A stretch of 64,000 bases of DNA from Francisella sp. SYW-9. Lineage in GTDB: Bacteria; Pseudomonadota; Gammaproteobacteria; Francisellales; Francisellaceae. Both the position numbers and the translations under genes were made by a program. The DNA lies in contig NZ_VXKQ01000007.1 of NCBI RefSeq assembly GCF_008711465.1, forward strand, positions 62,001 to 126,000, in the 5' to 3' direction. Under the pieces are notes generated by a model. That model was not told the origin of the DNA, did not search any database, and worked only from the letters and a program-made list of their open reading frames with translations. Below, piece after piece: positions 20,650 to 41,094 of the stretch; the first letter of the stretch is position 1; each line of letters starts with the position of its first letter.

Positions 20650-21294
20650 CTATTCAGGACGCACTAATGTCATTATAGATATTTTTTCTATTTGGCTATT
20701 CTTCTTGATAGTTTGAATAAACTCCTGCATTGTTGAGCCAGTAGTCAAAACATCATCAAATACTAACAGATGCTTAGCAACTACTGGCTTCTTTAAAACA
20801 AATACACCCTTAATTTGCTCAAGCCTTTTTTGCCTTGTAGATCTAGACTGTGATCTTGTATATCTAGCTCTTGAGTAGTTCTCAAAAGTCTCAGGAATAT
20901 TCGTATATTGAGACAACTGCGTAATTAAGACTTCAGCTTGATTAAATCCTCTATATAAATATCTAAGACGATGTATAGGAATAACTGCTAAGGCATCAAC
21001 ATCTTGTAAATGCTTTTTTGTAATATTGTCCCACCAATATTTAATAACTGTTGAAAAAACATTTGCTGATAATAAATCTTTTTGAAACTTAAACTTTTGT
21101 AGAAGATGCTTAACTTCTGCAGAATACTTAAGCAAATGATAATAATCATACTCCTGACCCAAATCAACTTGTTGTTTTTGAAAGTTTAAATGACTTAATA
21201 AACTTTCAAAACAATAACTACAAACAATATCATCTGAACTTTGTTTACACAAAAGACAATTTTGCTTAAAAAGCAATTTATATCTTGGAAGCAT
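20650..21294 (-). CDS. ComF family phosphoribosyltransferase-like protein
   Basis: A 214-residue ComF/GntX-family protein. A zinc-finger-like N-terminus (CLLCKQSSDDIVCSYC) precedes the PRTase fold, with PIHRLRYLYRGFNQAE, ARYTRSQSRSTRQKRLEQIKGVF, and the PRPP loop LLVFDDVLTTGSTM. In naturally competent bacteria ComF supports uptake or handling of transforming DNA; its enzymatic activity is not settled. ATG at 21294 overlaps the end of the GGDEF-EAL gene by 17 bases, so it is the last gene of that minus-strand run. A TTG at 21303 is also in frame. Confidence 0.88.
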   Translation of the reverse strand: MLPRYKLLFKQNCLLCKQSSDDIVCSYCFESLLSHLNFQKQQVDLGQEYDYYHLLKYSAEVKHLLQKFKFQKDLLSANVFSTVIKYWWDNITKKHLQDVDALAVIPIHRLRYLYRGFNQAEVLITQLSQYTNIPETFENYSRARYTRSQSRSTRQKRLEQIKGVFVLKKPVVAKHLLVFDDVLTTGSTMQEFIQTIKKNSQIEKISIMTLVRPE

Positions 21295-23497
21295 ACTTGG
21301 CAATAAAACTTTTTAATTGATCTATTTCAAGACCTTTAGAGTATAGATATCCTTGACCAATATCACAACCGTATTGGGTAACTAATTTCTCTAATGACTC
21401 GTCCTCAACTCCTTCAGCAACAACTCGAATACCTAATTTTCGTGCTACTTCAATAATAGCCTCTACAATAATATTATTCTTATTACTATTCTTTTCAGCT
21501 AACCCAAAGATAAATGATTTATCAATCTTTAATGTATCAATATCATGCTCAACTAATCTTTTAATTGAGGAGTGATCAACACCAAAATCATCAATTGCTA
21601 ATCTTATACCATTCGGTTTGAGAAGCTTAGAAATTATCTTTATATCTGAGCTTTCAATATTTTCAATAAATGAACTTTCAGTTAGCTCAAATTCCATTAC
21701 ATTATTTTTAATATATGAGCTTGATGCTACAATATTTACAAGTTCTTGAATATGTTCTTTAAAATTTCTAACTCTAGGGGATATATTAACTGAAATACTA
21801 ACACTCTCAAGCTCAAGACTATCTAAATCTTTTATAATCTTATTAAACACATACATGTTTAATTCTTCTGATAAAGAAAGTAACTCTATTCTTTCAACAA
21901 TCTCTGCTGTTGTAAAATCATTATCTGAATACCTTAATAACGCCTCAAACCCTTTTAGTTTTTTAGTTTTTAAGTCAAACTGAGGTTGATATACAAAATA
22001 AAACAACTCTTCTTTAAAACCACTATGAATAGTATTTACTAAATTATCTAGCCTATCACTCTCTTGTTTTAGATCCTGGTCAAATAACACATAGTCAAGC
22101 TTTTGCGTCTTACTTTTATATAGCGCTAAGTCTGCATATTTTAATAGCTTAGTTATACCTATACCACTATTATATCTACAAACTCCAATACTCATTGAAG
22201 TAAGTAGTCTTTCATTATCACGAGAATATGGTATGTCTTTTAGATCACTTACTCTTTGAGCAATTTTTTTAATCTCACTATCATCTTTTATATTATTACA
22301 AACTATTACAAATTCATCTCCACCTAGTCTTGCTACCACATCCGTTTTTTTAACTATAGATTTCAGCCTTGCAGCAAGCTCTCTAATAACATAATCACCA
22401 AAATCATGACCATATTTATCATTTATCCCTTTAAAATCATTACAATCTATCATAATGATGTAAAAATCTTTTTTAACTATATTATTTTCACTATCATATA
22501 GGCTTATTTTTTTCTCTAAAAATTGAGTTACATAAAAACGATTATAAATTCCTGATAGAAAATCTTTATTAGCCATATCTTTTATATATGCCATATCTCG
22601 ATTAGATTCTATCAACATTGAAATCACATATATCATTTTAGACAATTCTTTGATTATATTTTCATCATAGCCACTATCCCTATTAGCAATGCCAACCATA
22701 CCTATACATTTGTTATTTTTACCAATAATAGGAATTCCAGCATATGATCTTAAAGGCGGATGCCCCGTAGGAATACCAGTAGATTCAGGATGATTTGCAG
22801 GATCATTTGTAACAAGAGTTTTACCTGTTTTTATTGTATATCCAAATAATGTATCTAAATTTGTAAACTCTAATCCTTCCTGCCTTTTACTTTTATAAAG
22901 ATCTTTGGTCTCTTTATTCCAAGATATATCTGTTATAGCGTATGTTCTTAAGTATTTATTATCACCAGAGTCTTTAAATATCCCACCAATAAAACCATAT
23001 TCACTAGATGTATAATCAAGTAAAAAATGTAATATATATGAGAAAATTTTTGAGCTTTTCGTTTGCTTAATATGTAGTTCTTGTATTTTTGAGATAACTC
23101 TTACATATTGCTTTGACTTATACTCTTCTGTAAGATCCTTTATTGTACCTACAAAGACTTTTTCGCCATTATTTATCATTTCAGAAACTGCTAGCTCTAT
23201 GGGAAAAATTGTGCCATCTTTTTTCATCCCTTGAACAGTTCGAGATGAGTTAATAATATTTTTTTTGTTAGTTTTAAGGTATTTTTCAAGATACTTATCA
23301 TGCTTTGTCGAATATCTCTGAGGCATTAAGACTTTAACATTTTTATCTATAATCTCCTCAGAATCATATCCAAATAAAGTCTCTACAGCAGGGTTTACAT
23401 AAGCTACATTACCCTCTTGATCTATAATAATAACACCATCAAAAAGAGTTGATAATAGCTTTTTTAACAGAGGATTTGTTTCAATATCTATTCGCAC
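21278..23497 (-). CDS. PAS-GAF-GGDEF-EAL protein (c-di-GMP synthesis and/or breakdown)
   Basis: A 739-residue cytosolic signalling protein: PAS domain (residues about 10-125), GAF-like domain (about 145-300), GGDEF (about 305-475) and EAL (about 490-735). The cyclase signature is intact (GGDEF at 392-396), but the inhibitory site five residues before it reads KKTD instead of RxxD, so product inhibition is probably weak. The EAL domain has EALLR (518-520), VNIS, ELTES, DDFG, LKIDKSF and AEGVE, the metal and catalytic set of an active phosphodiesterase. Both activities are therefore possible. It lies 77 bases behind the adaptor gene in the exopolysaccharide run. Confidence 0.92.
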   Translation of the reverse strand: MRIDIETNPLLKKLLSTLFDGVIIIDQEGNVAYVNPAVETLFGYDSEEIIDKNVKVLMPQRYSTKHDKYLEKYLKTNKKNIINSSRTVQGMKKDGTIFPIELAVSEMINNGEKVFVGTIKDLTEEYKSKQYVRVISKIQELHIKQTKSSKIFSYILHFLLDYTSSEYGFIGGIFKDSGDNKYLRTYAITDISWNKETKDLYKSKRQEGLEFTNLDTLFGYTIKTGKTLVTNDPANHPESTGIPTGHPPLRSYAGIPIIGKNNKCIGMVGIANRDSGYDENIIKELSKMIYVISMLIESNRDMAYIKDMANKDFLSGIYNRFYVTQFLEKKISLYDSENNIVKKDFYIIMIDCNDFKGINDKYGHDFGDYVIRELAARLKSIVKKTDVVARLGGDEFVIVCNNIKDDSEIKKIAQRVSDLKDIPYSRDNERLLTSMSIGVCRYNSGIGITKLLKYADLALYKSKTQKLDYVLFDQDLKQESDRLDNLVNTIHSGFKEELFYFVYQPQFDLKTKKLKGFEALLRYSDNDFTTAEIVERIELLSLSEELNMYVFNKIIKDLDSLELESVSISVNISPRVRNFKEHIQELVNIVASSSYIKNNVMEFELTESSFIENIESSDIKIISKLLKPNGIRLAIDDFGVDHSSIKRLVEHDIDTLKIDKSFIFGLAEKNSNKNNIIVEAIIEVARKLGIRVVAEGVEDESLEKLVTQYGCDIGQGYLYSKGLEIDQLKSFIAKYASKI

Positions 23498-23574: not shown

Positions 23575-24588
23575 TCATATACGATTTACATCAATCTCCA
23601 CAGGTACATTATTAATATTATATTCCTCTGGGATTTCTTGCGTTGGCTTTACAATAATAACAACTTTTGATTCTTTTGAATCAAACATACTTGTATCATT
23701 ATTCATCTCAGCAAATACAGGTCTGGAATCAACAACTCCCTTAAATTTTGCTCCATCTTGGAAACGTATAGTAACCTTAGTCCCTTTTGAAACATATGAG
23801 ACAAACTCAGAATCTAAATATGCCCGAATAAAAGGCTTATCAAATAGTGAGAGTAAAGCCAATTCTTGACCTTTTTGCACAAACTCACCTTTATAAACAT
23901 AGACTCTATTAACTACAGCATCAACATCTATTTTTATATCAAGACTTTTTATTTTTTCTTCTAAAATACTCTTCTGTAAATTAAGTTGCCTTAATATTTC
24001 GGCATAATTGTTATCTTTTTCCAAAGAATACTTTTGTTTCTCTACTAGAACATTACCAAAATCCATCTCAGCATTATGTAACACCTGTGATGATTGCTGA
24101 AGCTCGATAATATTAATAATATTTTTCTTTCTTAGCTGAACCATAGCATTATAAAACTTCTCATTAATATCAACATATTTTTTAGCTATAGCATACTTAT
24201 GCTCTAGAGCTTTTAGATCCTTTTTATATAACTTATCTTGTAAGCTTTTTACATCTTTTATCTGACTTTTAATCTCATTAAGTTCAGTATTTAGAAGAGG
24301 CGATGACATTATAAAAACTTCTTCACCATTTTTAACAAGCTTTCCAGGATGAATATTATTTTGCTTGATAAAACCATCTTCATGAGCTCGAATTAGATAC
24401 TTCTCAGTAACGACTGTACCATCTGCAACTATAAACCAGTTGCTACTAAAAATCATCCAACCTATATATATCAAAGGCGAGATAACTATGACGACAACCA
24501 TATACCATTGTAACTTTGAAATGTTTTTCTTCACAGGAGATGCTTGGGTCTGCATTATCTGTTTATTTTTTGGTGGTTTGAACTTCAT
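23575..24588 (-). CDS. HlyD-like periplasmic adaptor of the exopolysaccharide locus
   Basis: A 337-residue membrane-fusion-type protein: a short basic cytosolic tail, one transmembrane helix (about residues 27-50), then a periplasmic part with a lipoyl-like half (AHEDGFIKQNNIHPGKLVKNGEEVFIM), a long coiled-coil hairpin (about 105-205), the second lipoyl half (IDVDAVVNRVYVYKGEFVQKGQELALL) and a beta-barrel (SKGTKVTIRFQDGAKFKGVV). Its placement 10 bases after a processive glycosyltransferase, without an ABC or RND partner, resembles Alg44 next to Alg8, though no PilZ domain is present. I infer that it guides nascent polysaccharide across the periplasm. Confidence 0.85.
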   Translation of the reverse strand: MKFKPPKNKQIMQTQASPVKKNISKLQWYMVVVIVISPLIYIGWMIFSSNWFIVADGTVVTEKYLIRAHEDGFIKQNNIHPGKLVKNGEEVFIMSSPLLNTELNEIKSQIKDVKSLQDKLYKKDLKALEHKYAIAKKYVDINEKFYNAMVQLRKKNIINIIELQQSSQVLHNAEMDFGNVLVEKQKYSLEKDNNYAEILRQLNLQKSILEEKIKSLDIKIDVDAVVNRVYVYKGEFVQKGQELALLSLFDKPFIRAYLDSEFVSYVSKGTKVTIRFQDGAKFKGVVDSRPVFAEMNNDTSMFDSKESKVVIIVKPTQEIPEEYNINNVPVEIDVNRI

Positions 24589-24598
24589 ATTTACACTC

Positions 24599-25915
24599 TT
24601 ACTTAACCTTTTTATTAATCCAAGTTGGAGCCATGGTACTATCTCTATGTGTTTTTATAAAAAGTTCACTTAATACAGCAACCGTTGCAACAAATTTTAA
24701 AAATATCGAATAAAAAGGCATCAAAGGAATCATGTACCACATTGCCAAATCCTGCTTTTTTCTTTCTGAAACCAAAACTATAAATGTCATAAATAAGAAA
24801 GCAGTAATTACTAGATAATAAAAATATACCGCAATATAGATCGGAATAATAATATAAAAGGGAAAAATAATCATGCTATATATTAAGCTAATAACTATTG
24901 CAATTGGTTGTACCGCATGAAAAAACAAACCAGAGAAAACTGTAATTAAGAAAGTTTTCCAGCCCAAGTATCTAGGTAATAATCTCTTAAGATGCCTTCT
25001 TATATATATAAAATAAGTATCTCCATCCCAACGCATTCTCTGCTTAATTAATTCCCAAATTTTCTCAGGAACTTCAGTATGAGCAATACTATCTTGAGAA
25101 TGTGCTATCCTAAAATTAGGATGTCTTTTGAAAAAAAACTGTAATCTAAGTGTCAAATCAAGATCTTCAGCAGAACCATTTCTCCATAGTGTAGTCTTTT
25201 TTAACAATGATTTTCTAAAACAACCATAAGCACCAGATATATTATTTACACTATTGGCATTAGATAAAGCAATGCGCGACATATGTATCCCAAGCATATA
25301 CTCTATGCCTTGCATGCGTGTAAGGATATTCTTTTTTATATTTCGTGCTCTGAGAGTTCCTGAGCATGCTATCACATTTGGATCTGCAAATTGTTGTACC
25401 ATATTACTAATCATATCATTATCACATGAGGTATCGGCATCAAGAGTTATAACTAACTCACCCGTACTTATCTTAAAACCGAGATTTGATGATGAGGCAT
25501 AGCCACCTCTTTGCCATTTTGGAATAACTTTTAGTGATCTCATAGGTATAGCTGTAAAATCCTTTTTATAGCTCATTGCCACATCAAGAGTTTCTTTATT
25601 AACACTAGCTCCATCTATTATAATTAAAACTTCAATATGTCCTTTATATAGCTGCTCCTCAAGACTTCTTAGCGTTATTAAAATATCTTTGCCTTCATTA
25701 TATGCTGTGATGATACAACTAACCTTAGGATAATATGGTGCTCTATGGTCCGGACTAACAATCTGTCTAAAATAACTAGCCACTATGCTTAAAAATATGA
25801 ATATATTAAAAGGTATTTCCAAGAATAAAACAAAACCAAAACCAAAAATAAAAAGCTCCCCTGGATTTGAAAATATCAATAAAGTTTGTTGATAAAATAC
25901 ATATAATATATCCAA
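24599..25915 (-). CDS. Processive family 2 glycosyltransferase (polysaccharide synthase)
   Basis: A 438-residue integral-membrane GT2 enzyme. One N-terminal helix (about 17-48) precedes the GT-A domain with CIITAYNEG (67-75), D101, the DxD motif in LDADT (159-161), the acceptor-site SAEDLDLT (249-256) and QRMRW (292-296), the QxxRW motif of processive synthases such as cellulose, hyaluronan and PNAG synthases. Four or more helices follow (about 315-430). It should polymerise a sugar from UDP- or GDP-sugar and extrude it through the inner membrane. The sugar is unknown. No PilZ domain is fused, which fits a separate c-di-GMP receptor, here the gene four bases upstream. Confidence 0.92.
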   Translation of the reverse strand: MDILYVFYQQTLLIFSNPGELFIFGFGFVLFLEIPFNIFIFLSIVASYFRQIVSPDHRAPYYPKVSCIITAYNEGKDILITLRSLEEQLYKGHIEVLIIIDGASVNKETLDVAMSYKKDFTAIPMRSLKVIPKWQRGGYASSSNLGFKISTGELVITLDADTSCDNDMISNMVQQFADPNVIACSGTLRARNIKKNILTRMQGIEYMLGIHMSRIALSNANSVNNISGAYGCFRKSLLKKTTLWRNGSAEDLDLTLRLQFFFKRHPNFRIAHSQDSIAHTEVPEKIWELIKQRMRWDGDTYFIYIRRHLKRLLPRYLGWKTFLITVFSGLFFHAVQPIAIVISLIYSMIIFPFYIIIPIYIAVYFYYLVITAFLFMTFIVLVSERKKQDLAMWYMIPLMPFYSIFLKFVATVAVLSELFIKTHRDSTMAPTWINKKVK

Positions 25916-25919
25916 AAAT

Positions 25920-27287
25920 TCACCTTTTGTTTGCTAAATCCTTCAATAAAGTCTGTGCTTTTTTAGCCGTATCAATAGCTGTTGAGTGAAAAGTCTCAAC
26001 CCGTATTGATTTTTCAGCTATCATATCTTCTGATACATTTATTTTCCTTAGTTTTTGGGCAACTATCTCAGCTCCTGATATATTTGTACCTGGAAGCCAA
26101 ACCCATATGTTCTGACTATCTACTCTAGTTAACATATCTGTTTTTCTAAGGATATCTCTTAGTTTCTTTGATATATTAGATATCCCTATCATGGTAATAT
26201 AGTCAAAGATATTTATATGTAGCAAAGAAAATTCATATGCTGAATTTCGCTTCTGCATCGAGCAAGCCCATTCAATCAAACTATAAAAAAACTCTGTTGC
26301 AATATAGTTAACATCATCAAATATCGACATCGAATACTCAAGCAAATTCATTTTTATAAAATGATGGGCTTTTTTTGTCAGATCATAGTTACTAACCCTT
26401 TGCTTTATCATTTTTTCAGTTAATGTTTTAAAACCACAATCCAAGCATTCTGTTATAACCTCAGGCTCCACAAAGATACTTCCACAGTCATTACATGAGT
26501 AACTTTCTAATGGCCTATCATAGTCATGTCCAATATGCTTAAGTTTTGTTTTACACTGAGAGCAAACCAGCTCATCATCTAACATAAACTCCCTCTCTGG
26601 CGCAATATTACCACAAGTATAACAATGTAAAAAATCTGCTAGAAGTATATTTTCACTTTTACAATCTGGACACCTTTCTGAAAATAGCGCTCTGGCAGAG
26701 TGACAACTACTACAACAAAAAAATGATTTAACAAAATTCTTAGATTTAATAATCTGTCTTTCTGCAAGCTCTTTTATCCAACCAAAGTAGTCAAAATCTT
26801 TTGTTTGACAAAAAACATCAATAATAGGGTAACTAAAAAACGACTTCCTTGATAAGTCACTTCGAACATCAAGTGTTAACACACTCCTTCTTGTATATAG
26901 ATATATCAAAAACCTAGCTTGCCAATCTTGCTTTATGTTGTCTTTTTTTTGAGAGATCTCTTCTATAGTACTAATCTCAGCATTAACCATTTCAATAAAT
27001 TCTGCTAATGCTGCACAAGTTGTAAATACAGTTGCTGTATAATCAACAAAACTAGCATCAACACAAAAAACTGGCTTTAGGTATGTATAAATACTGGCTC
27101 TAATTCTCTTTATAATATGCAAGAATTCTTCTAGATTATTTGTATTTAAAACAAAAGCATCAATATCTTCAAAAGACTCATCAATTTCATCATCTAAAGA
27201 AACTGCCAGCACCTCGCAGCTAGATAACTCTTGGCTAAGTTTTTCGCTTATTTTATCTAGTGTAACAACCTTAATTATATTCTCCAT
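25920..27287 (-). CDS. Zinc-ribbon protein with degenerate GGDEF domain (candidate c-di-GMP receptor)
   Basis: A 455-residue cytosolic protein. Residues 1-110 look like a receiver-type alpha/beta domain without a clear phosphoacceptor. Residues about 190-290 hold clustered CxxC pairs (CSSC...CPDC, CYTC...CSQC, CNDC...CLDC), the pattern of tandem zinc ribbons such as TackOD1. Residues about 300-450 match a GGDEF fold, but the active-site loop is DSQNI (390-394) in place of GGDEF, so no cyclase activity is expected. The inhibitory-site motif RxxD is kept as RKTD (381-384), exactly five residues before that loop. It is the first gene of the run, four bases before the glycosyltransferase. Confidence 0.8.
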   Translation of the reverse strand: MENIIKVVTLDKISEKLSQELSSCEVLAVSLDDEIDESFEDIDAFVLNTNNLEEFLHIIKRIRASIYTYLKPVFCVDASFVDYTATVFTTCAALAEFIEMVNAEISTIEEISQKKDNIKQDWQARFLIYLYTRRSVLTLDVRSDLSRKSFFSYPIIDVFCQTKDFDYFGWIKELAERQIIKSKNFVKSFFCCSSCHSARALFSERCPDCKSENILLADFLHCYTCGNIAPEREFMLDDELVCSQCKTKLKHIGHDYDRPLESYSCNDCGSIFVEPEVITECLDCGFKTLTEKMIKQRVSNYDLTKKAHHFIKMNLLEYSMSIFDDVNYIATEFFYSLIEWACSMQKRNSAYEFSLLHINIFDYITMIGISNISKKLRDILRKTDMLTRVDSQNIWVWLPGTNISGAEIVAQKLRKINVSEDMIAEKSIRVETFHSTAIDTAKKAQTLLKDLANKR

Positions 27288-27420: not shown

Positions 27421-29313
27421 ATGTATTTACCCCAAAGAAGAGCGCAAACAATTGTTAGCCTAGTTGTTCTTGTTATAGCTAGTGTTGTTATATTTGGTTG
27501 GCTAACTGGTAATGTAAGTATTGTTAAATTAAACAAAAGCTTTCCCCCAATGCAATTTAACACAGCTCTATGCTTTGCTATCCTGGCAATCGTTAACTTT
27601 ATTCCTAAGACATCAAAATTTAGTTATAGCCGTTGTATACTCTCACTTATCGTATTAATAATTTCTCTGCTAACGCTATTAGAATATTTATTTGGATTAA
27701 ACTTTGGTATCGATCATATAATAAGCGCAAAGACCCTTGATCATTCACTATATCCCGGTAGAATGTCACCCAATACTGCAGTCTGTTTTCTACTTCTGGC
27801 CATTGCTAATATACTACCTCGCTTTAAGAAAAATGTTCTTCTTTTAAGAGGATTATTTTTTGGAGCAAACCTAATAGTGCTCACATTAGCATATATCTCT
27901 CTATTTGGATACTTCTTTAATATTTCATTTTATTTTAGCTGGGGTCATATTACAGGTATGGCGTTACATACTTCTGTATGTTTGCTTATGCTGACACTCT
28001 TTAGAACTTCTTTTAAAGGAGTAAAATCTAAAGCTCATATTATAGGAATTATATTAAGTTCTGCTTCTTTTGTTATATTTTTCTTAGTTTGGCCATATAC
28101 ATTTGACCAAGATTCTAAAGCTATTAAAAACAATGTACATAAAGAAATCTCTCTAGTAAATATAAACTTAGAGAAAAAACTAGATTTAGAGGCAACAGCT
28201 ATAGACAGGCTCTACAAACGCCTAAGCACATCATCATACTCAAGTAAAAAAGCTATAATTGCAGATATGCAAGCTTATGAAGATGATTATCCAAATATAT
28301 ACTTTATATACTACATACAGGATAAACAGCAAAAGCCTATTTTCTTATCTAACTATGACATAACACAAACTCAAGCTTTAGATGTCTTAAAAGAATGTAG
28401 CTCAAGCAAAACATTATCTAAAACAAAGACAATTTGTATTAAAGAAGAAAATAATAAGTTTAATGTTGTATTTAAACCCAACTTTTCAGAAAAAGTTATG
28501 TCTGAAATAAATCGCAACCACTATCCTATAGAGATTTATCTTGAAGGCCATAAGATATACTCAAACCTAGATCCTAAAAAATATTATGGTATGTCATACT
28601 CTTTCGAGTTCACTGGAGAAAAGCACTGGCACATCAAGGTTTTCTTTACAGATAAACAATATGAACAGTTACAAAAATTCTTCCCGACAATATTTTTCTT
28701 ACTAGGTATAATTATATCACTAATGATACAAGGGCTATTTTACTTCATTGGTATTAACTTTAGAAAAAATAAAATACTAATACAAAAGCAAATAAAACTC
28801 AAAAAACTTAGCTCTATTGATTCTTTAACAGGATGCTTAAATAGACATAGTTTTGAGAAAAAACTAAATGCAATATTAAGTAGTGGACGAAATTCTGATA
28901 ATGATAATATTGCTATACTATTTATTGATTTAGATAATTTTAAATATATCAATGATAAATATGGTCATGAAGTAGGAGATTTGATACTAAAAGAAGTAGC
29001 CTCTAGATTGATAAATAATCTTAGAGAGAATGATTTAATCTCAAGAATCGGTGGTGATGAATTCATCGCTGTTCTAAGAAATATAGATAATGAGGATATG
29101 GCTACAGATATTATTAAAAGAATAATTACTTCATTCAAAGAAAAAATAATTATTTCTAGTGAAGTTCAAATCACTCAAACGATTAGTATAGGTGCTACTC
29201 TAATTGATGCAAAGAATAATGATATAAATAGTGATAAGTTAATCACTAAAGCTGATATGGCTATGTATAAAGCCAAGAAATCAGGTAAAAACCAATTTAA
29301 TTTTTCTGACTAA
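27421..29313 (+). CDS. Membrane-bound diguanylate cyclase with triplicated two-helix sensor
   Basis: A 630-residue inner-membrane protein. The N-terminus has three related two-helix units, each ending in an NTA/HTS-CF...LAI.N motif (near residues 47, 118 and 183), then a helix near 205-225, a periplasmic domain (about 228-415, CHASE-like by position), a last helix (about 421-446) and a GGDEF domain (about 460-628). The cyclase signature is intact (RIGGDEF, 544-548) and the inhibitory site RxxD is present as REND (535-538), so an active, feedback-inhibited diguanylate cyclase is expected. It is divergent from the receptor gene; a TATAAT lies at 27379-27384. Confidence 0.9.
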   Translation: MYLPQRRAQTIVSLVVLVIASVVIFGWLTGNVSIVKLNKSFPPMQFNTALCFAILAIVNFIPKTSKFSYSRCILSLIVLIISLLTLLEYLFGLNFGIDHIISAKTLDHSLYPGRMSPNTAVCFLLLAIANILPRFKKNVLLLRGLFFGANLIVLTLAYISLFGYFFNISFYFSWGHITGMALHTSVCLLMLTLFRTSFKGVKSKAHIIGIILSSASFVIFFLVWPYTFDQDSKAIKNNVHKEISLVNINLEKKLDLEATAIDRLYKRLSTSSYSSKKAIIADMQAYEDDYPNIYFIYYIQDKQQKPIFLSNYDITQTQALDVLKECSSSKTLSKTKTICIKEENNKFNVVFKPNFSEKVMSEINRNHYPIEIYLEGHKIYSNLDPKKYYGMSYSFEFTGEKHWHIKVFFTDKQYEQLQKFFPTIFFLLGIIISLMIQGLFYFIGINFRKNKILIQKQIKLKKLSSIDSLTGCLNRHSFEKKLNAILSSGRNSDNDNIAILFIDLDNFKYINDKYGHEVGDLILKEVASRLINNLRENDLISRIGGDEFIAVLRNIDNEDMATDIIKRIITSFKEKIIISSEVQITQTISIGATLIDAKNNDINSDKLITKADMAMYKAKKSGKNQFNFSD

Positions 29314-29401: not shown

Positions 29402-31522
29402 ATGAGTCATTATCTTAAAAAAGAGCTCTATGATCTAATAAGTGAAAATCATAAAATTTTTGACTCTTTACAAAAGTCTAGCCTAGACGGTCTATGGTAT
29501 TGGGATTTAGAAAATCCCGAAAATGAATGGATGAATGATAGATTTTGGGAAATACTCGGCTATGATCCTAAAGAGAAAAAGCCACTTACATCAGAATGGC
29601 AGCATCTAATTTTCCCAGAAGATCTTCAAACAGCTACACAAAACCTAGAAAAACACCTTAAAGACCCAAATCATGAATACTCTCAAATAGTTAGATATAA
29701 ACATAAAAATGGCTCAACAGTATGGGTTAGGTGTCGTGGAATGGCAATCCGTGATAAAAATGGTAACCCCATTAGAATGTTTGGTGCACATAATGATCTT
29801 ACCGCACTAAAAAATATACAACAAGATTTAAAAGAATCAAAAGAATTCTCTGAATTAATGTTTGATGCTAGTGAAGATATTATGTTTGTTAAAGATAAAA
29901 ATTATCGTCTTATCAAAGCAAATAAAGCCATGCTTAATCTATACCCTAAAGATATACAAGAATCTGTTATAGGGACAACAACAGTTGAGAAATTCTCTGC
30001 TGAAGATGCTAAACTTTTCCTCAAATATGACAAGATTGCCTTTAAAAAAGGCTCATCTAGAACAATTGAATATATAACCACCCCTACTGGTGAAAAAATA
30101 GTCATCGATACTTATAAGGTTAGATTCTGCAATAAAGCAGGAGAACCTTTTATCTTGGGTATAGCTAGAGATGTCACAGAAAGAGAGGCTTTACTTCAAA
30201 GCATAAAGGAAAAAAATACCAAACTTAATTATATTGCATATAACGATGAACTAACCAAGCTTTTAAATCGTAAGGGGTTTATCAAAGCTGCGGAAAGATC
30301 TCTCAAAAAAGCCAATAAAAATCTCCTAACTGCCCTAATTATGATAGATCTAGATAATTTTAAGTTTATAAATGGCTCTTTTGGGTATTCTGTAGGTGAC
30401 AAGCTTATAGTTACTATAGCTAAGATCTTAAGATCTTGTTTACCTGAAAATAGTATTATTGGTAGATCAGGTGGCGACGACTTTTTAGTTCTAATTGAAA
30501 ACCAAAATAACTTTCAAAAAATAGAAGATATTACTAAAAGTATAATAAAAAAAATATCTACTCCAATTGATATAAGTAAAAACAGCATAACTCAATCTGT
30601 TAGTATAGGAATCGCAACATATCCTGACATTGCACCAAATATAGAAAAGCTACTCCAAAATGCTGATACAGCTATGCACAATGCTAAATCTATGGGTAAA
30701 AATATATACTCAAACTATAGCTTTGATTATGATGAAGCTACAAGACGTCGTAACAGCATAGAACGCGAACTATTAAATATTGATATGCGTGAGTTTAATA
30801 TTGTTTATCATCCTCAATTTGATGCTGATATGAACATTTACGGCGTAGAGGCTTTAATACGCTGGAACTCACCTAATCTAGGTAATGTTACACCAGATGA
30901 ATTTATACCTATAGCAGAAAAAAACCAAACTATTGAAAAAATAGGTCAGTGGATATTTAAAAAAACCATATCTGATTGGCAGAAATTATTAAAAGCTAAT
31001 TTAATAGATAACATTAAACTATCCATAAATATATCTAGCATACAACTCATCAACAATAAATTTTCTGATAAAATAATTAAATTCTTTGATAAGATTGATA
31101 AAAAATTAATCACTTTTGAAATTACAGAAACATACTTATTAAGTGATATAAATCATACAAGATCCATTATTAACAAATTAAATAATAAAGGCTTTAGTTT
31201 TGCCTTAGATGATTTTGGTACAGGCTACTCCTCATTGAAGTATCTTGCTAATTTACCTATTAAATACCTAAAAATTGATAAATCATTTGTTAGTGACTTT
31301 GATAGAGAAAATAATAAAGCTATTATAAAAGCTATAGTACAATTAGCAAATAACTTAAATAAAAAATGTGTAGCTGAAGGAGTCGAAACAGCCGAACAGC
31401 TTGAATTTTTAAAATCAATAGGTTGTGATTTTTATCAAGGATTCTATTTTAGTAGACCTATACCTTTTATAGAGCTTAAAAAACTATTACAATCTCTCCA
31501 ACAAACTAAACCTAAGAAATAA
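29402..31522 (+). CDS. PAS-PAS-GGDEF-EAL protein, probable c-di-GMP phosphodiesterase
   Basis: A 706-residue cytosolic protein: PAS-PAC (residues about 20-137), a second PAS (about 145-262), GGDEF (about 275-435) and EAL (about 450-700). The cyclase loop reads GGDDF (357-361), with Asp for the catalytic-region Glu, and there is no RxxD before it (PENS). The EAL domain is complete: EALIRW (483-488), INIS, EITET, DDFGTG, LKIDKSF, AEGVE and QGFYFSRP. I expect a phosphodiesterase whose GGDEF part is regulatory, for example GTP-sensing. It follows the diguanylate cyclase by 88 bases, giving a synthesis/breakdown pair. Confidence 0.92.
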   Translation: MSHYLKKELYDLISENHKIFDSLQKSSLDGLWYWDLENPENEWMNDRFWEILGYDPKEKKPLTSEWQHLIFPEDLQTATQNLEKHLKDPNHEYSQIVRYKHKNGSTVWVRCRGMAIRDKNGNPIRMFGAHNDLTALKNIQQDLKESKEFSELMFDASEDIMFVKDKNYRLIKANKAMLNLYPKDIQESVIGTTTVEKFSAEDAKLFLKYDKIAFKKGSSRTIEYITTPTGEKIVIDTYKVRFCNKAGEPFILGIARDVTEREALLQSIKEKNTKLNYIAYNDELTKLLNRKGFIKAAERSLKKANKNLLTALIMIDLDNFKFINGSFGYSVGDKLIVTIAKILRSCLPENSIIGRSGGDDFLVLIENQNNFQKIEDITKSIIKKISTPIDISKNSITQSVSIGIATYPDIAPNIEKLLQNADTAMHNAKSMGKNIYSNYSFDYDEATRRRNSIERELLNIDMREFNIVYHPQFDADMNIYGVEALIRWNSPNLGNVTPDEFIPIAEKNQTIEKIGQWIFKKTISDWQKLLKANLIDNIKLSINISSIQLINNKFSDKIIKFFDKIDKKLITFEITETYLLSDINHTRSIINKLNNKGFSFALDDFGTGYSSLKYLANLPIKYLKIDKSFVSDFDRENNKAIIKAIVQLANNLNKKCVAEGVETAEQLEFLKSIGCDFYQGFYFSRPIPFIELKKLLQSLQQTKPKK

Positions 31523-36954: not shown

Positions 36955-38643
36955 TTATATATATACTGACATATCCAGTGTAATAGTATTCATATACTGA
37001 CCACTGTATAATTTTTGATATGAATATTCTGGGCCAAATAAAACATTATTATCAAAGTACGCTCTGTTACCACTGATAATAAGCTGTTCTTTTATTCCTG
37101 AGGTTGTACTATTACCATTTATTGGAGATGCTGATAAGCTCATTGGTAAGGTTGCAGCATTATAAGATTGACCATAAGAGACACCAAAACTGGTATTTCT
37201 ACCACCTAACAACATTGAGTAGTTAGCAGCACCATACCATGCACCTGCTAGCACATTACCGCCATCTCCATTAAAATCTTGTGAATTTGTAGTTGTTGAC
37301 CAACCAGCACCTAAGTTTAAGAAGCCACCCCATAAACCATAAGTTAAGTTTCCATCAAAGTTAAATGCACCTATTGGTGTTGCTGCTGAGAGACCTTGAT
37401 TTTTAAGGAAAGTACTCAATGAAGTATTACCGGCACCCGCCATATTATAAACATAACCAACGTTAAAAGCACCAATTAAGTTATCTGTCCAGCTATCAAC
37501 ATAGAATAGACCAGTTGAAAAGTCTGCAGTCTGGTCATCTGAGCCAAAAACAGTAATATTGGCGTTCCATACTTGATCTTTATAGTTTACAGAGACATTA
37601 GTGACCTTATCTGGAGATAAGAAGTCGGTGATACCTGACGTCCAAGGACCACCACCGCCATATGTACCTACAGATAGCTTATTCCTACCTGCTGTTACAA
37701 AGAATGGTGAAGTATCTAAATTACCAAAGATTACAAAAGCGTTACCTAAGCCAAAGGTACCAGATTCAGATGTATCAAAATCAAATTGTGCTGTTACATA
37801 GTGTCCAAGATTCGATAGGAAATATAGTTTAGCATTTGTTAAATAAATATTTTGGCCATTACCTGATATATTAGTAGATGCATTACTACTACCCCACCAG
37901 GATTGTGCATCTGCTTCAATAAAGCCACCAAAGAAAACTGAGTAATCATCAAACTTTTCTCTTTGACTTAATAAGGTTGAAGCAAAAAGGTTTGATGAAA
38001 TCTGTCCAATTGGAATACTGTTGTTACCAGAATATGAACCTAGGAAAGTAACTTGACCTTGAGTTGTAATTGCTGGAGCTCCTCCGACATCAATACCACC
38101 GTTTTGGTTAAACACACCTCCTAAGGACTTATTTCCTAAGTCAACTATCGAGTTACTATCATTAACATTCTCCATAATATCTGAAGCACTTTGACCATCA
38201 ACTAATGTCTGACTTAAATCATCTCCAGTTATTGCCTGTGGAGTGTTAGGCTGATTATCATATACTTTGGTACTATATGTGGCAAACTGGGAGTTTCCAC
38301 CTGACATATTTTTAATTTCACCATTTTGGTTTTGACTTTGTTGCTTAATCTGCTGTAGTTGACCTTGTAACTTTTCAACTTGCTTTTGCAACTTTAATAA
38401 AAGTTCTTTCTCATTGACACTCTGATCATTTGATCCTTTACTTGAAGGTTGTGATGATTCAGAATCTTTAGCTTGTGAAGTCTTTTTAGCTAAGGAATTA
38501 TTAAGGTCCTGTTGACCAATGCTCGTTGCACCTAAAGGCCCTCCTTGAGAAACGACATCTGGAGAACCATCCTCTGAATAACCCAATGTAAAACATATAA
38601 ACATACCACTGATTAAAATAAAGGTTTTTTTAAACTTTTGCAC
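36955..38643 (-). CDS. FupA/FupB-family outer-membrane protein (DUF3573), copy next to der
   Basis: A 562-residue Francisella-type DUF3573 protein. A signal peptide (VQKFKKTFILISG...LGYSE) is followed by VVSQGGPLGA, a coiled-coil stretch (KELLLKLQKQVEKLQGQLQQIKQQ), the family core GGIDVGGAPAITTQGQVTFLG and a C-terminal beta-barrel-like half ending in an aromatic-rich strand. I use GTG at 38643: GGGGAGG lies ten bases upstream, whereas the earlier GTG (38652) abuts it. The family is known for iron handling (FupA for ferrous uptake, FslE for siderophore). By position relative to maeA this copy would correspond to fupB. It is highly similar to its neighbour. Confidence 0.88.
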   Translation of the reverse strand: MQKFKKTFILISGMFICFTLGYSEDGSPDVVSQGGPLGATSIGQQDLNNSLAKKTSQAKDSESSQPSSKGSNDQSVNEKELLLKLQKQVEKLQGQLQQIKQQSQNQNGEIKNMSGGNSQFATYSTKVYDNQPNTPQAITGDDLSQTLVDGQSASDIMENVNDSNSIVDLGNKSLGGVFNQNGGIDVGGAPAITTQGQVTFLGSYSGNNSIPIGQISSNLFASTLLSQREKFDDYSVFFGGFIEADAQSWWGSSNASTNISGNGQNIYLTNAKLYFLSNLGHYVTAQFDFDTSESGTFGLGNAFVIFGNLDTSPFFVTAGRNKLSVGTYGGGGPWTSGITDFLSPDKVTNVSVNYKDQVWNANITVFGSDDQTADFSTGLFYVDSWTDNLIGAFNVGYVYNMAGAGNTSLSTFLKNQGLSAATPIGAFNFDGNLTYGLWGGFLNLGAGWSTTTNSQDFNGDGGNVLAGAWYGAANYSMLLGGRNTSFGVSYGQSYNAATLPMSLSASPINGNSTTSGIKEQLIISGNRAYFDNNVLFGPEYSYQKLYSGQYMNTITLDMSVYI

Positions 38644-39115
38644 TAAAACCACGCCTCCCCAAACATAAAAAATAAAGCCCTATGAAAAGTTAATCATAAA
38701 GCCATCATCTTGGCCTATTTAGACCTAGAGCATTATCAAATATACTATCTGCATTTTGCTGTATCATATTGACAACTATGTGTTATAAATTTAAAATTTA
38801 ATTGCCAAACTATGACTTCATGGAACTATATAATAGACAAGATTAATTTACTAACCCCAATCTACAAAATAATGTCGAGAAAGTCACATCCGCTTAAATT
38901 TTACAATTTCTAATAATACAAAAATGCTAGTTTCGCTTAAACATATTAAGCTCAAATTTACATGATCTTATAAACATTTCAAAAGCTTACTTAATCACTA
39001 AAAACACTAACACTTCGACTTTTATTTTACTGACTAGATATTATAAATCAATAGAAAAGATAAATATTTTGAATAGCTATCAAAGACGAGACAGCCAATA
39101 ATGAAATGGCAAATA
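38644..39115. other. Intergenic gap between the two fup paralogues
   Basis: Apart from the GGGGAGG ribosome site of the downstream gene I see no gene, RNA or strong terminator here. It should hold the promoter of the second paralogue: a minus-strand TTGGCA with TATAAC 15 bases on is a weak candidate. I searched by eye for a Fur-box match (GATAATGATAATCATTATC-like) and found only a short TTGATAATG fragment, not convincing. Confidence 0.4.
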
Positions 39116-40789
39116 TTATACAAATATAGACAGATCTAGAGTAATAGTGTTCATATGTTTGCCACCATATAACTGTTGATATGAATATTCTGGACCAAAT
39201 AAGACATTATTGTCAAAATAAGCACGCTGACCTGAAACAAGAAGCTGTCTACGTATCCCGATAGGTGATTTAGCACCATTTATAGCAGAAGCTGATAATG
39301 TCATAGGTATATCTTTTGCATTATATGATTGACCATAAGAAACACCGAAGTTAGTATTTCTACCTCCTAACACCATTGAGTAGTTGGCCGCACCATACCA
39401 CCCTCCAGCAAGCACACTTGAACCATCCCCATTAAAATCTTGGGTATTTGTTGTTGTTGACCAGCCAGCACCTAAGTTTAAGAGTCCTCCAAATAAGCCA
39501 TATGTCAAGTTTCCATCAACGTTAAAAGCACCCACTTTCGCAGAGGTGTTATTTCCATACTGCTCCTTCAAAAAGCTAACCACATCACCATTTCCAGAAC
39601 CATTTAGATTATAAACATAACCAACGTTAAAGGCTCCTACTAAGTTCTCAGTCCAATTATCCGCATAAAATAAACCAGTTGAAAAATCAGCTGAATTATC
39701 ATTTGTACCAAAAACAGATACATTGGCATTCCAAACCTGACTTTTATAGTTTACTGATATATTACTAGCTCGACTAGGTTTCAAAAAGATAGTCATACCA
39801 TCTGTCCAGGTACCACCACCACCATATGATCCAACAGATAGCTTGTTTCTACCTACTGTTACAAAGAAAGGAGAAGTATCTAAGTTACCAAAAATTGCAA
39901 GGGCATTACCAACACTAAAATTACCTGTTTCATCTGTATCAAAGTCAAATTGCATAGTCACATAATGACCAACATTTGCTAAGAAATATAATCTAGCTGC
40001 TGTTAGGTAGATATTTTCTCCAGTTGGAGATAATTCAGTATTTGAAGGTCCATATTTCGCAATACCACTATTACCAAACCATGTTTGAGCATCTGCTTCC
40101 AAGTATGCACCGAAGAAAATTGAATAATCATCGAACTTTTCCCTTTGACCTAATAATGTTGATGCAAAAAGGCTCGAGCTAATCTGTCCAATAGGAATAC
40201 TGTTGTTACCTGAGAATGAACCTAGGAATGTAACCTGACCTCGAGTAGTAATTGCAGGAGCTCCCCCTACGTCAATACCACCACTTGAATTAAATACCCC
40301 ACCCAAGGCCTTATTATTTAGATCAACAATCGAACCTTTTGTATCAACATTTTCCATAATATCGGCAGGATTTTGGCCGCTAGCCAAATCAGATAAATCC
40401 TGACCGCTAAGAGAGTTAGGCTTATTATCATAAACTTTTCTACCATATGTAGAAAACTGTGTATTCTCATTAGATGTATTTTGGATACTAGTTTTTTGTG
40501 CCTTAATTTGTAATAACTGACCTTGCAACTGCTTAACTTGCTTTTGCAACTCTAGTAACATCTCTTTTTCATTTACATTTTGAGCATTTGACTGCTGTGA
40601 TGCATTTGATCCAGCGTTTTTTGAAGTACCTGAGCTAGCAGTAGCGTTATTTACATTTTGAGCACCAATACTAACTGCTCCTAAAGGACCTCCTTGAGAA
40701 ACAACCGCTGGAGAGTTCTCAGAATAACCAAGCCCACAACATAATAATAAACTACTTAAAATAAAGCTTCTCTTAAACTTTCCTGTCAC
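39116..40789 (-). CDS. FupA/FupB-family outer-membrane protein (DUF3573), copy next to maeA
   Basis: A 557-residue paralogue of the preceding protein: signal peptide (TGKFKRSFILSSLLLCCGLGYSE), VVSQGGPLGAVSIG, coiled coil (KEMLLELQKQVKQLQGQLLQI), family core GGIDVGGAPAITTRGQ and a barrel-like C-terminal half. The start is GTG at 40789 with GAGG eight bases upstream; the longer frame adds an acidic segment before the signal peptide. Position next to maeA matches fupA of F. tularensis, needed for high-affinity ferrous iron uptake. Substrate assignment to this copy is inferred from position only. Confidence 0.88.
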   Translation of the reverse strand: MTGKFKRSFILSSLLLCCGLGYSENSPAVVSQGGPLGAVSIGAQNVNNATASSGTSKNAGSNASQQSNAQNVNEKEMLLELQKQVKQLQGQLLQIKAQKTSIQNTSNENTQFSTYGRKVYDNKPNSLSGQDLSDLASGQNPADIMENVDTKGSIVDLNNKALGGVFNSSGGIDVGGAPAITTRGQVTFLGSFSGNNSIPIGQISSSLFASTLLGQREKFDDYSIFFGAYLEADAQTWFGNSGIAKYGPSNTELSPTGENIYLTAARLYFLANVGHYVTMQFDFDTDETGNFSVGNALAIFGNLDTSPFFVTVGRNKLSVGSYGGGGTWTDGMTIFLKPSRASNISVNYKSQVWNANVSVFGTNDNSADFSTGLFYADNWTENLVGAFNVGYVYNLNGSGNGDVVSFLKEQYGNNTSAKVGAFNVDGNLTYGLFGGLLNLGAGWSTTTNTQDFNGDGSSVLAGGWYGAANYSMVLGGRNTNFGVSYGQSYNAKDIPMTLSASAINGAKSPIGIRRQLLVSGQRAYFDNNVLFGPEYSYQQLYGGKHMNTITLDLSIFV

Positions 40790-41094
40790 AATTACATCCT
40801 CAAAATTAAACAAAAGTTAAACTAATCTTAAAGAGATTGCATGACGAAAAATTCACTTTCAATATTTTTTACAGCAAATATTCAATTATAGATTTACTCT
40901 CAAGACTCTTAGAGTTAAATAGAGTAAAGTCTTATATGGAAGCCTTTCCAGGCACTTTCATATTAGATATGAACAAACCATTCTCACACTACAAACAATT
41001 TTTTTCAATAGCTTTATAGTAGGAAAAATTAATATAAACTTAATGACTAAAAGCATGAGGAATCTAAAAAAAGAGAAGATAATTTAAGAAAATA
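40790..41094. other. Gap between maeA and the first fup paralogue
   Basis: The region holds the GAGG ribosome site (40798-40801) and presumably the promoter of the fup-type gene; a minus-strand TTGAAA is the only partial -35 box seen. A 60-codon plus-strand frame has no ribosome site and no recognisable product. I see no clear terminator for maeA. Confidence 0.4.

Follow-up and report, generated by a model that had tools for sequence, protein, structure and literature searches.

Gene organisation of the locus

The window analysed here, a 64,000 nucleotide stretch of a Francisella sp. SYW-9 contig, carries on its minus strand a gene for a 455 aa protein with a receiver-like (REC-like) region, a TackOD1 domain and a degenerate GGDEF domain, referred to below as MxdA-type (Table 1). 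Four bases separate the gene from the ORF of a GT2 synthase starting at 25915, as an earlier note on this DNA had stated and the minus strand ORF coordinates confirm, and the same note's description of this synthase as having no PilZ domain also holds, with Pfam at E 0.1 returning GT2-type models only. An HlyD-type adaptor gene follows and genes for likely c-di-GMP enzymes lie on both sides. Promoter and terminator scans gave no more than shuffled level. For the 455 aa protein no NCBIfam model scored over its cut-off, no phage homolog or PHROG match was found and the hydropathy profile had no transmembrane peak (top 19-residue value 1.25).

Elsewhere in the window two adjoining ORFs (36955-38652 and 39116-40813) encode similar 565 aa proteins with the look of outer-membrane porins. 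Outside the window the same genome contains one PilZ-domain match (contig C2, 153776-154021) and MxdA-type proteins are therefore not its only predicted c-di-GMP receptors.

Table 1 Features of the MxdA-type gene and its neighbours (positions in the window; residue numbers refer to the encoded protein)
Feature	Position	Strand	Remarks
MxdA-type protein, 455 aa: REC-like, TackOD1, degenerate GGDEF	25920..27287	-	ATG start
Receiver-like fold, residues 1-113; N48 at the phospho-Asp position	26949..27287	-	
TackOD1 (PF18551), residues 115-303	26379..26945	-	Pfam E 4.8e-52
Degenerate GGDEF fold, residues 320-455	25923..26330	-	VIA-align and PDB profile matches
R381-K-T-D384, I-site RxxD (PleD R359/D362)	26136..26147	-	
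D390-S-Q-N-I394 where GG(D/E)EF is expected	26106..26120	-	
K412 at the position of PleD R390	26052..26054	-	
R347, conserved Arg preceding strand 1	26247..26249	-	probable equivalent of PleD R313
GT2 synthase (MxdB-like), QRMRW at 292-296, membrane segments, no PilZ match	24599..25915	-	TTG start
HlyD-type adaptor (MxdC-like)	23575..24588	-	
PAS-GAF-GGDEF-EAL protein, likely c-di-GMP turnover	21278..23497	-	Pfam
Divergent GGDEF protein, RxxD and GGDEF both intact, likely cyclase	27421..29313	+	
PAS-GGDEF-EAL protein, likely c-di-GMP turnover	29402..31522	+	Pfam

The N-terminal region and TackOD1

The receiver-like N-terminus proposed in the earlier note stands as a fold, in the AlphaFold2 model and in structural matches, but not as a phosphorylation site: N48 occupies the phospho-Asp position, where only 18 of 46 relatives have D. 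Since this residue is unconserved the N-terminus is at most a degenerate receiver, and the conserved receiver Asp of a phosphorylatable response regulator is missing.

TackOD1 (PF18551) scored 176.7 bits against a curated cut-off of 32, and the tandem CxxC clusters seen by the earlier note resolve into six pairs at 192-284 (C192/C195, C206/C209, H221-C222/C225, C242/C245, C265/C268 and C281/C284). Modelled alone the domain reached pLDDT 90 with no significant fold match (top Foldseek E 0.03, VIA-align Z at most 3.8); the weak matches were largely winged helices, in two halves flanking the ribbons. As these matches are not significant, the reading of TackOD1 as possibly a winged helix with three predicted zinc ribbons inserted in its wing is suggestive only, and a ribbon-free paralog from a congener that keeps the rest of the domain fits such an insertion. 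TackOD1 with its CxxC pattern and REC partners was described in 2018, when its function was called obscure (PMC5847659), and the gene order here matches that of mxd, so that the earlier view of the CxxC and receiver-like parts as new partners for a c-di-GMP receptor is not supported.

Loss of the active site and retention of the inhibitory site

Pfam matched GGDEF at residues 370-416 only below threshold. The AlphaFold2 model of the whole protein (mean pLDDT 86.8) nevertheless comprises a REC-like domain at 5-113, TackOD1 and a GGDEF fold at 320-455, the last of which aligned best with 5llw_A (VIA-align Z 13.5, rmsd 3.3, 129 residues aligned), and PDB profile matches to this region reached E 1e-10. 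Read in the translated ORF, DSQNI (390-394) replaces GGDEF and RKTD (381-384) precedes it at a spacing of five residues (MLTRV), both as first reported. The earlier note had proposed a structural check on whether RKTD lies at the inhibitory site, and it is placed there both by the model, between helix 369-379 and strand 385-388, and by ungapped alignments of the family profile, which bring PleD R359/D362/R390 onto R381/D384/K412 and run likewise without gaps through the RxxD motif of several PDB GGDEF chains. The numbering of the PleD sequence used in this alignment is self-consistent.

The combination of a dead active site with an intact inhibitory site, already claimed in the earlier note, is borne out by the alignment of relatives, where RxxD was invariant in 89/89 sequences (about 37 effective sequences) and GG(D/E)EF occurred in 0/89. 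When related sequences were given less weight (about 37 effective), invariance in the C-terminal domain was confined to W340, R381 and D384. Across a 46-sequence set R347 was kept in 44 and both R381 and D384 in all 46, while position 412 held R in 39 sequences and K in another 6 (basic in 45/46); the K of our protein at this third I-site position counts against a receptor reading. By comparison, intact GGDEF domains in the fetched loci, mostly from the own genus, carried RxxD in 9/25 motif matches, a base rate that may truly approach one half since the pattern admits a few false matches, and in the own genome 4 of 7 GGDEF domains had the motif. In proteins of the own genus the stretch from strand 1 to the next helix is shortened, and model confidence falls to pLDDT 64 at 361-370, which we also counted against a receptor.

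Could the domain still have weak diguanylate cyclase activity from a non-canonical site? Homologs are labelled 'diguanylate cyclase' in plasmid records and some unusual motifs, AGDEF for one, are active (PMC3974145). The protein however has neither GG(D/E)EF nor the metal-binding acids of this class, both of which were lost throughout the 46-sequence set, where the metal-binding positions (357, 359) and the GGDEF loop were unconserved and mostly non-acidic. In the down-weighted alignment the columns of this loop ranked with the most variable ones in the domain. We consider cyclase activity very improbable.

Distribution and gene order in relatives

A single-protein query against genome contigs recovered no relatives. 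With an alignment as query, named genomes yielded 564, and the 80 best were retained. The scan patterns lie within TackOD1 and so did not select for RxxD. The relative from Fangia hongkongensis was the one obtained from a genome listed as the same family. To check for the bias that a set of 80 best matches may bring, the Pfam model was run on two evenly drawn sets of genomes. The draw at class level added 11 loci beyond the own genus (L141-L151), three of them resembling species already among the 80, and RxxD was present in all 9 that could be read through the motif; the phylum draw added 14 more (L165-L177 and L181), with RxxD in 13. Both draws combined thus gave RxxD in 22/23 readable loci, and a GT2 gene was adjacent in 10/11 and 14/14 loci respectively.

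Gene order was similarly constant among the fetched loci, with GT2 located up to about 1 kb downstream, and in most cases abutting, in 80/83 and HlyD nearby in 79/83. Two of the exceptions for GT2 (L046 and L098) terminate shortly past the gene, and some lineages have HlyD upstream or an outer-membrane efflux protein between GT2 and HlyD. Among congeners searched for both, full-length mxdA and a close GT2 occurred in the same five genomes. The architecture of REC-like, TackOD1 and degenerate GGDEF domains followed by GT2 and HlyD genes is widespread.

Two individual loci deserve mention. In a congener (G006; L128 10797-12108) the GT2 gene is fragmented, whereas the frames of the mxdA-type and HlyD genes are open. 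The third exception for GT2 is a full-length relative from a gammaproteobacterium (L047 5656-7047), which has RTSD and no adjoining GT2 and is followed by apparent genes of a two-component system and of phosphate transport.

Relatives lacking RxxD and shorter paralogs

RxxD was absent from seven alphaproteobacterial plasmid relatives, some of them close to one another, which still lie beside GT2 and HlyD. It follows that the fold does not force the motif and that c-di-GMP is dispensable to the module, a point against the receptor reading. Two of these, on Roseibium and Palleronia plasmids (L130 3146-5026 and L162 3125-4822), begin with a receiver domain over the Pfam cut-off and sit beside GT2, a gene at the HlyD position and genes for an Hpt protein or a sensor kinase; the sequences make a swap of input from c-di-GMP to a phosphorelay possible.

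These loci bear on the proposal that RxxD is a structural relic and the domain a dimerisation or docking module that works without nucleotide, regulation entering through the REC-like end, for instance by CheY docking. The retained gene order of the relatives without RxxD, two of them with a real REC, would suit such a module, as would the binding of CheY3 to MxdA in Shewanella (PMC7666153). Against it, the very existence of the alphaproteobacterial relatives means that the fold needs no RxxD, the third I-site position is basic in 45/46 and Shewanella MxdA is reported to bind c-di-GMP (PMC11395469), and we regard a relic as improbable.

In Alisedimentitalea (L131 3770-5055) TackOD1 and the GGDEF-like tail are separate ORFs preceding GT2, and in the related strain M382 (L164) they form a single ORF. 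Shorter paralogs from the own genus, one on contig C40 of the same genome (L004 9693-10973) and the others at L121-L124 and L126, are missing the middle zinc ribbon, and in one of them (G012) all ribbons are gone. All keep RKTD and adjoin GGDEF or GGDEF-EAL genes; the G012 copy is the only one near a GT2 cluster.

Shorter paralogs also occur in genomes without a close GT2, which together with their place beside cyclase genes speaks for an I-site receptor whose target is transcription or another complex, reached through a winged-helix-like TackOD1, and not the adjacent GT2. The weak likeness of the TackOD1 model to winged helices (Z up to 3.8) and the single gammaproteobacterial locus with no adjoining GT2 lean the same way. 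Nearly all full-length cases however adjoin GT2, and a Z below 8 carries no weight for DNA binding, leaving another target unlikely, if marginally less so than a relic.

Taking these variants together we tentatively suggest, at somewhat less than even odds, that TackOD1 is a dedicated GT2-switching connector with interchangeable inputs, mostly an I-site GGDEF domain and in some Alphaproteobacteria a true receiver with phosphorelay genes, and that the shorter own-genus copies, minus one or all ribbons, are free c-di-GMP receptors away from the synthase.

A predicted c-di-GMP switch for a polymer synthase

We conclude, with a probability of about 0.82, that the gene takes the mxdA place in an exopolysaccharide operon of mxdABC-like type and that its dead GGDEF domain would be the I-site receptor through which c-di-GMP switches the neighbouring GT2 synthase. 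The receptor role for this synthase, which the earlier note had proposed, is well supported in silico by the retention of the I-site, the loss of the A-site and the linkage to GT2, and the flanking c-di-GMP enzymes on both sides also count in its favour. Binding of c-di-GMP by the 455 aa protein, activation of GT2, export of the polymer and the part of TackOD1 as connector are what we infer from this.

In the proposed mechanism the C-terminal GGDEF domain would no longer make c-di-GMP but would bind it at the former product-inhibition site through R381, D384 and K412, to which a neighbouring domain probably adds its R347 in the manner of I-site dimers. The flanking GGDEF and GGDEF-EAL enzymes would supply and remove the nucleotide, whose binding may alter the shape or oligomeric state of the MxdA-type protein, and TackOD1 would relay the signal to the neighbouring GT2 synthase. 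The synthase would then polymerise a sugar chain, and the HlyD-type adaptor would assist in exporting it.

Many polymer synthases are governed by c-di-GMP, yet only a fused PilZ domain makes the receptor obvious. The MxdA-type relatives surveyed here, often annotated as 'diguanylate cyclase' or 'hypothetical', represent a predicted receptor for PilZ-less GT2 synthases in several phyla, and the lineages without RxxD or with a receiver offer a natural test of how the input to a synthase changes. The combination itself is not new, and our protein is probably a further member of a little-studied switch already described as Shewanella MxdA; the fresh part may be the census, with near-universal RxxD, universal loss of GGDEF and receiver-bearing relatives that lack RxxD.

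Comparison with known systems

The REC-GGDEF proteins PleD, DgcR and WspR share the REC-like and GGDEF folds and the I-site positions but are cyclases with intact active sites, and no TackOD1 separates their domains. Thaumarchaeota and some bacteria have TackOD1 proteins that share PF18551, the CxxC pattern and REC partners with ours, whereas the archaeal architectures listed are without a GGDEF-like domain (PMC5847659). PssE of Listeria monocytogenes likewise has a degenerate GGDEF (DKDDA) with RxxD five residues upstream, belongs to an exopolysaccharide operon and binds c-di-GMP (PMC4125290); its operon differs and TackOD1 is not described for it. BgsA of Sinorhizobium was considered as a parallel and set aside, as it has its own c-di-GMP-binding tail, unlike a separate receptor (PMC5567048).

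PelD of P. aeruginosa and B. cereus resembles our protein in its degenerate GGDEF domain with RxxD and a third basic residue, all present here. It binds c-di-GMP and controls polymer synthesis, and in B. cereus mutating the equivalent three residues abolishes both binding and biofilm (PMC7112168). PelD is however a membrane protein with GAF and GGDEF domains encoded in a pel operon, whereas the protein described here has a REC-like and TackOD1 front, no transmembrane peak, no GAF match and no pel neighbours, and the 'PelD-like' family label of the earlier note is dropped; the relation is one of analogy and not membership. The absence of PelD from the 50 structural matches listed carries no weight either way.

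Membership of the MxdA type, defined by the relatives surveyed here, is seen in TackOD1 followed by a degenerate GGDEF and in the GT2 and efflux/HlyD-type genes directly downstream, while the MxdA label and the putative orthology are drawn from gene order and published links (PMC2358893, PMC3691769). In a Francisella novicida strain without FTN_0451-0456 a heterologous cyclase reportedly still increased biofilm (Zogaj, 2012), so another receptor must exist in that species. The F. novicida FTN_0453 cluster was tied to the Shewanella cluster in 2008 (PMC2358893), and FTN_0451-0456 has been linked to c-di-GMP turnover and biofilm (PMC3952080, PMC9763628). In S. oneidensis aggregation is lost in mxdA and in mxdB mutants (PMC3691769), and for MxdA both c-di-GMP binding and contacts with CheY3 and PdgA are reported (PMC7666153, PMC11395469); in an earlier study (Rakshe 2011, cited in PMC3691769) MxdA reportedly altered c-di-GMP levels indirectly, which we counted against the receptor reading. 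Like MxdA of S. oneidensis MR-1 (SO_4180, mxdABCD) our protein is encoded by the first gene of an operon with a GT2 (MxdB) and an efflux-type protein (MxdC), and unlike the described MxdA it has a shortened GGDEF domain, K as third I-site residue and, at another place in the genome, a shorter paralog poor in ribbons.
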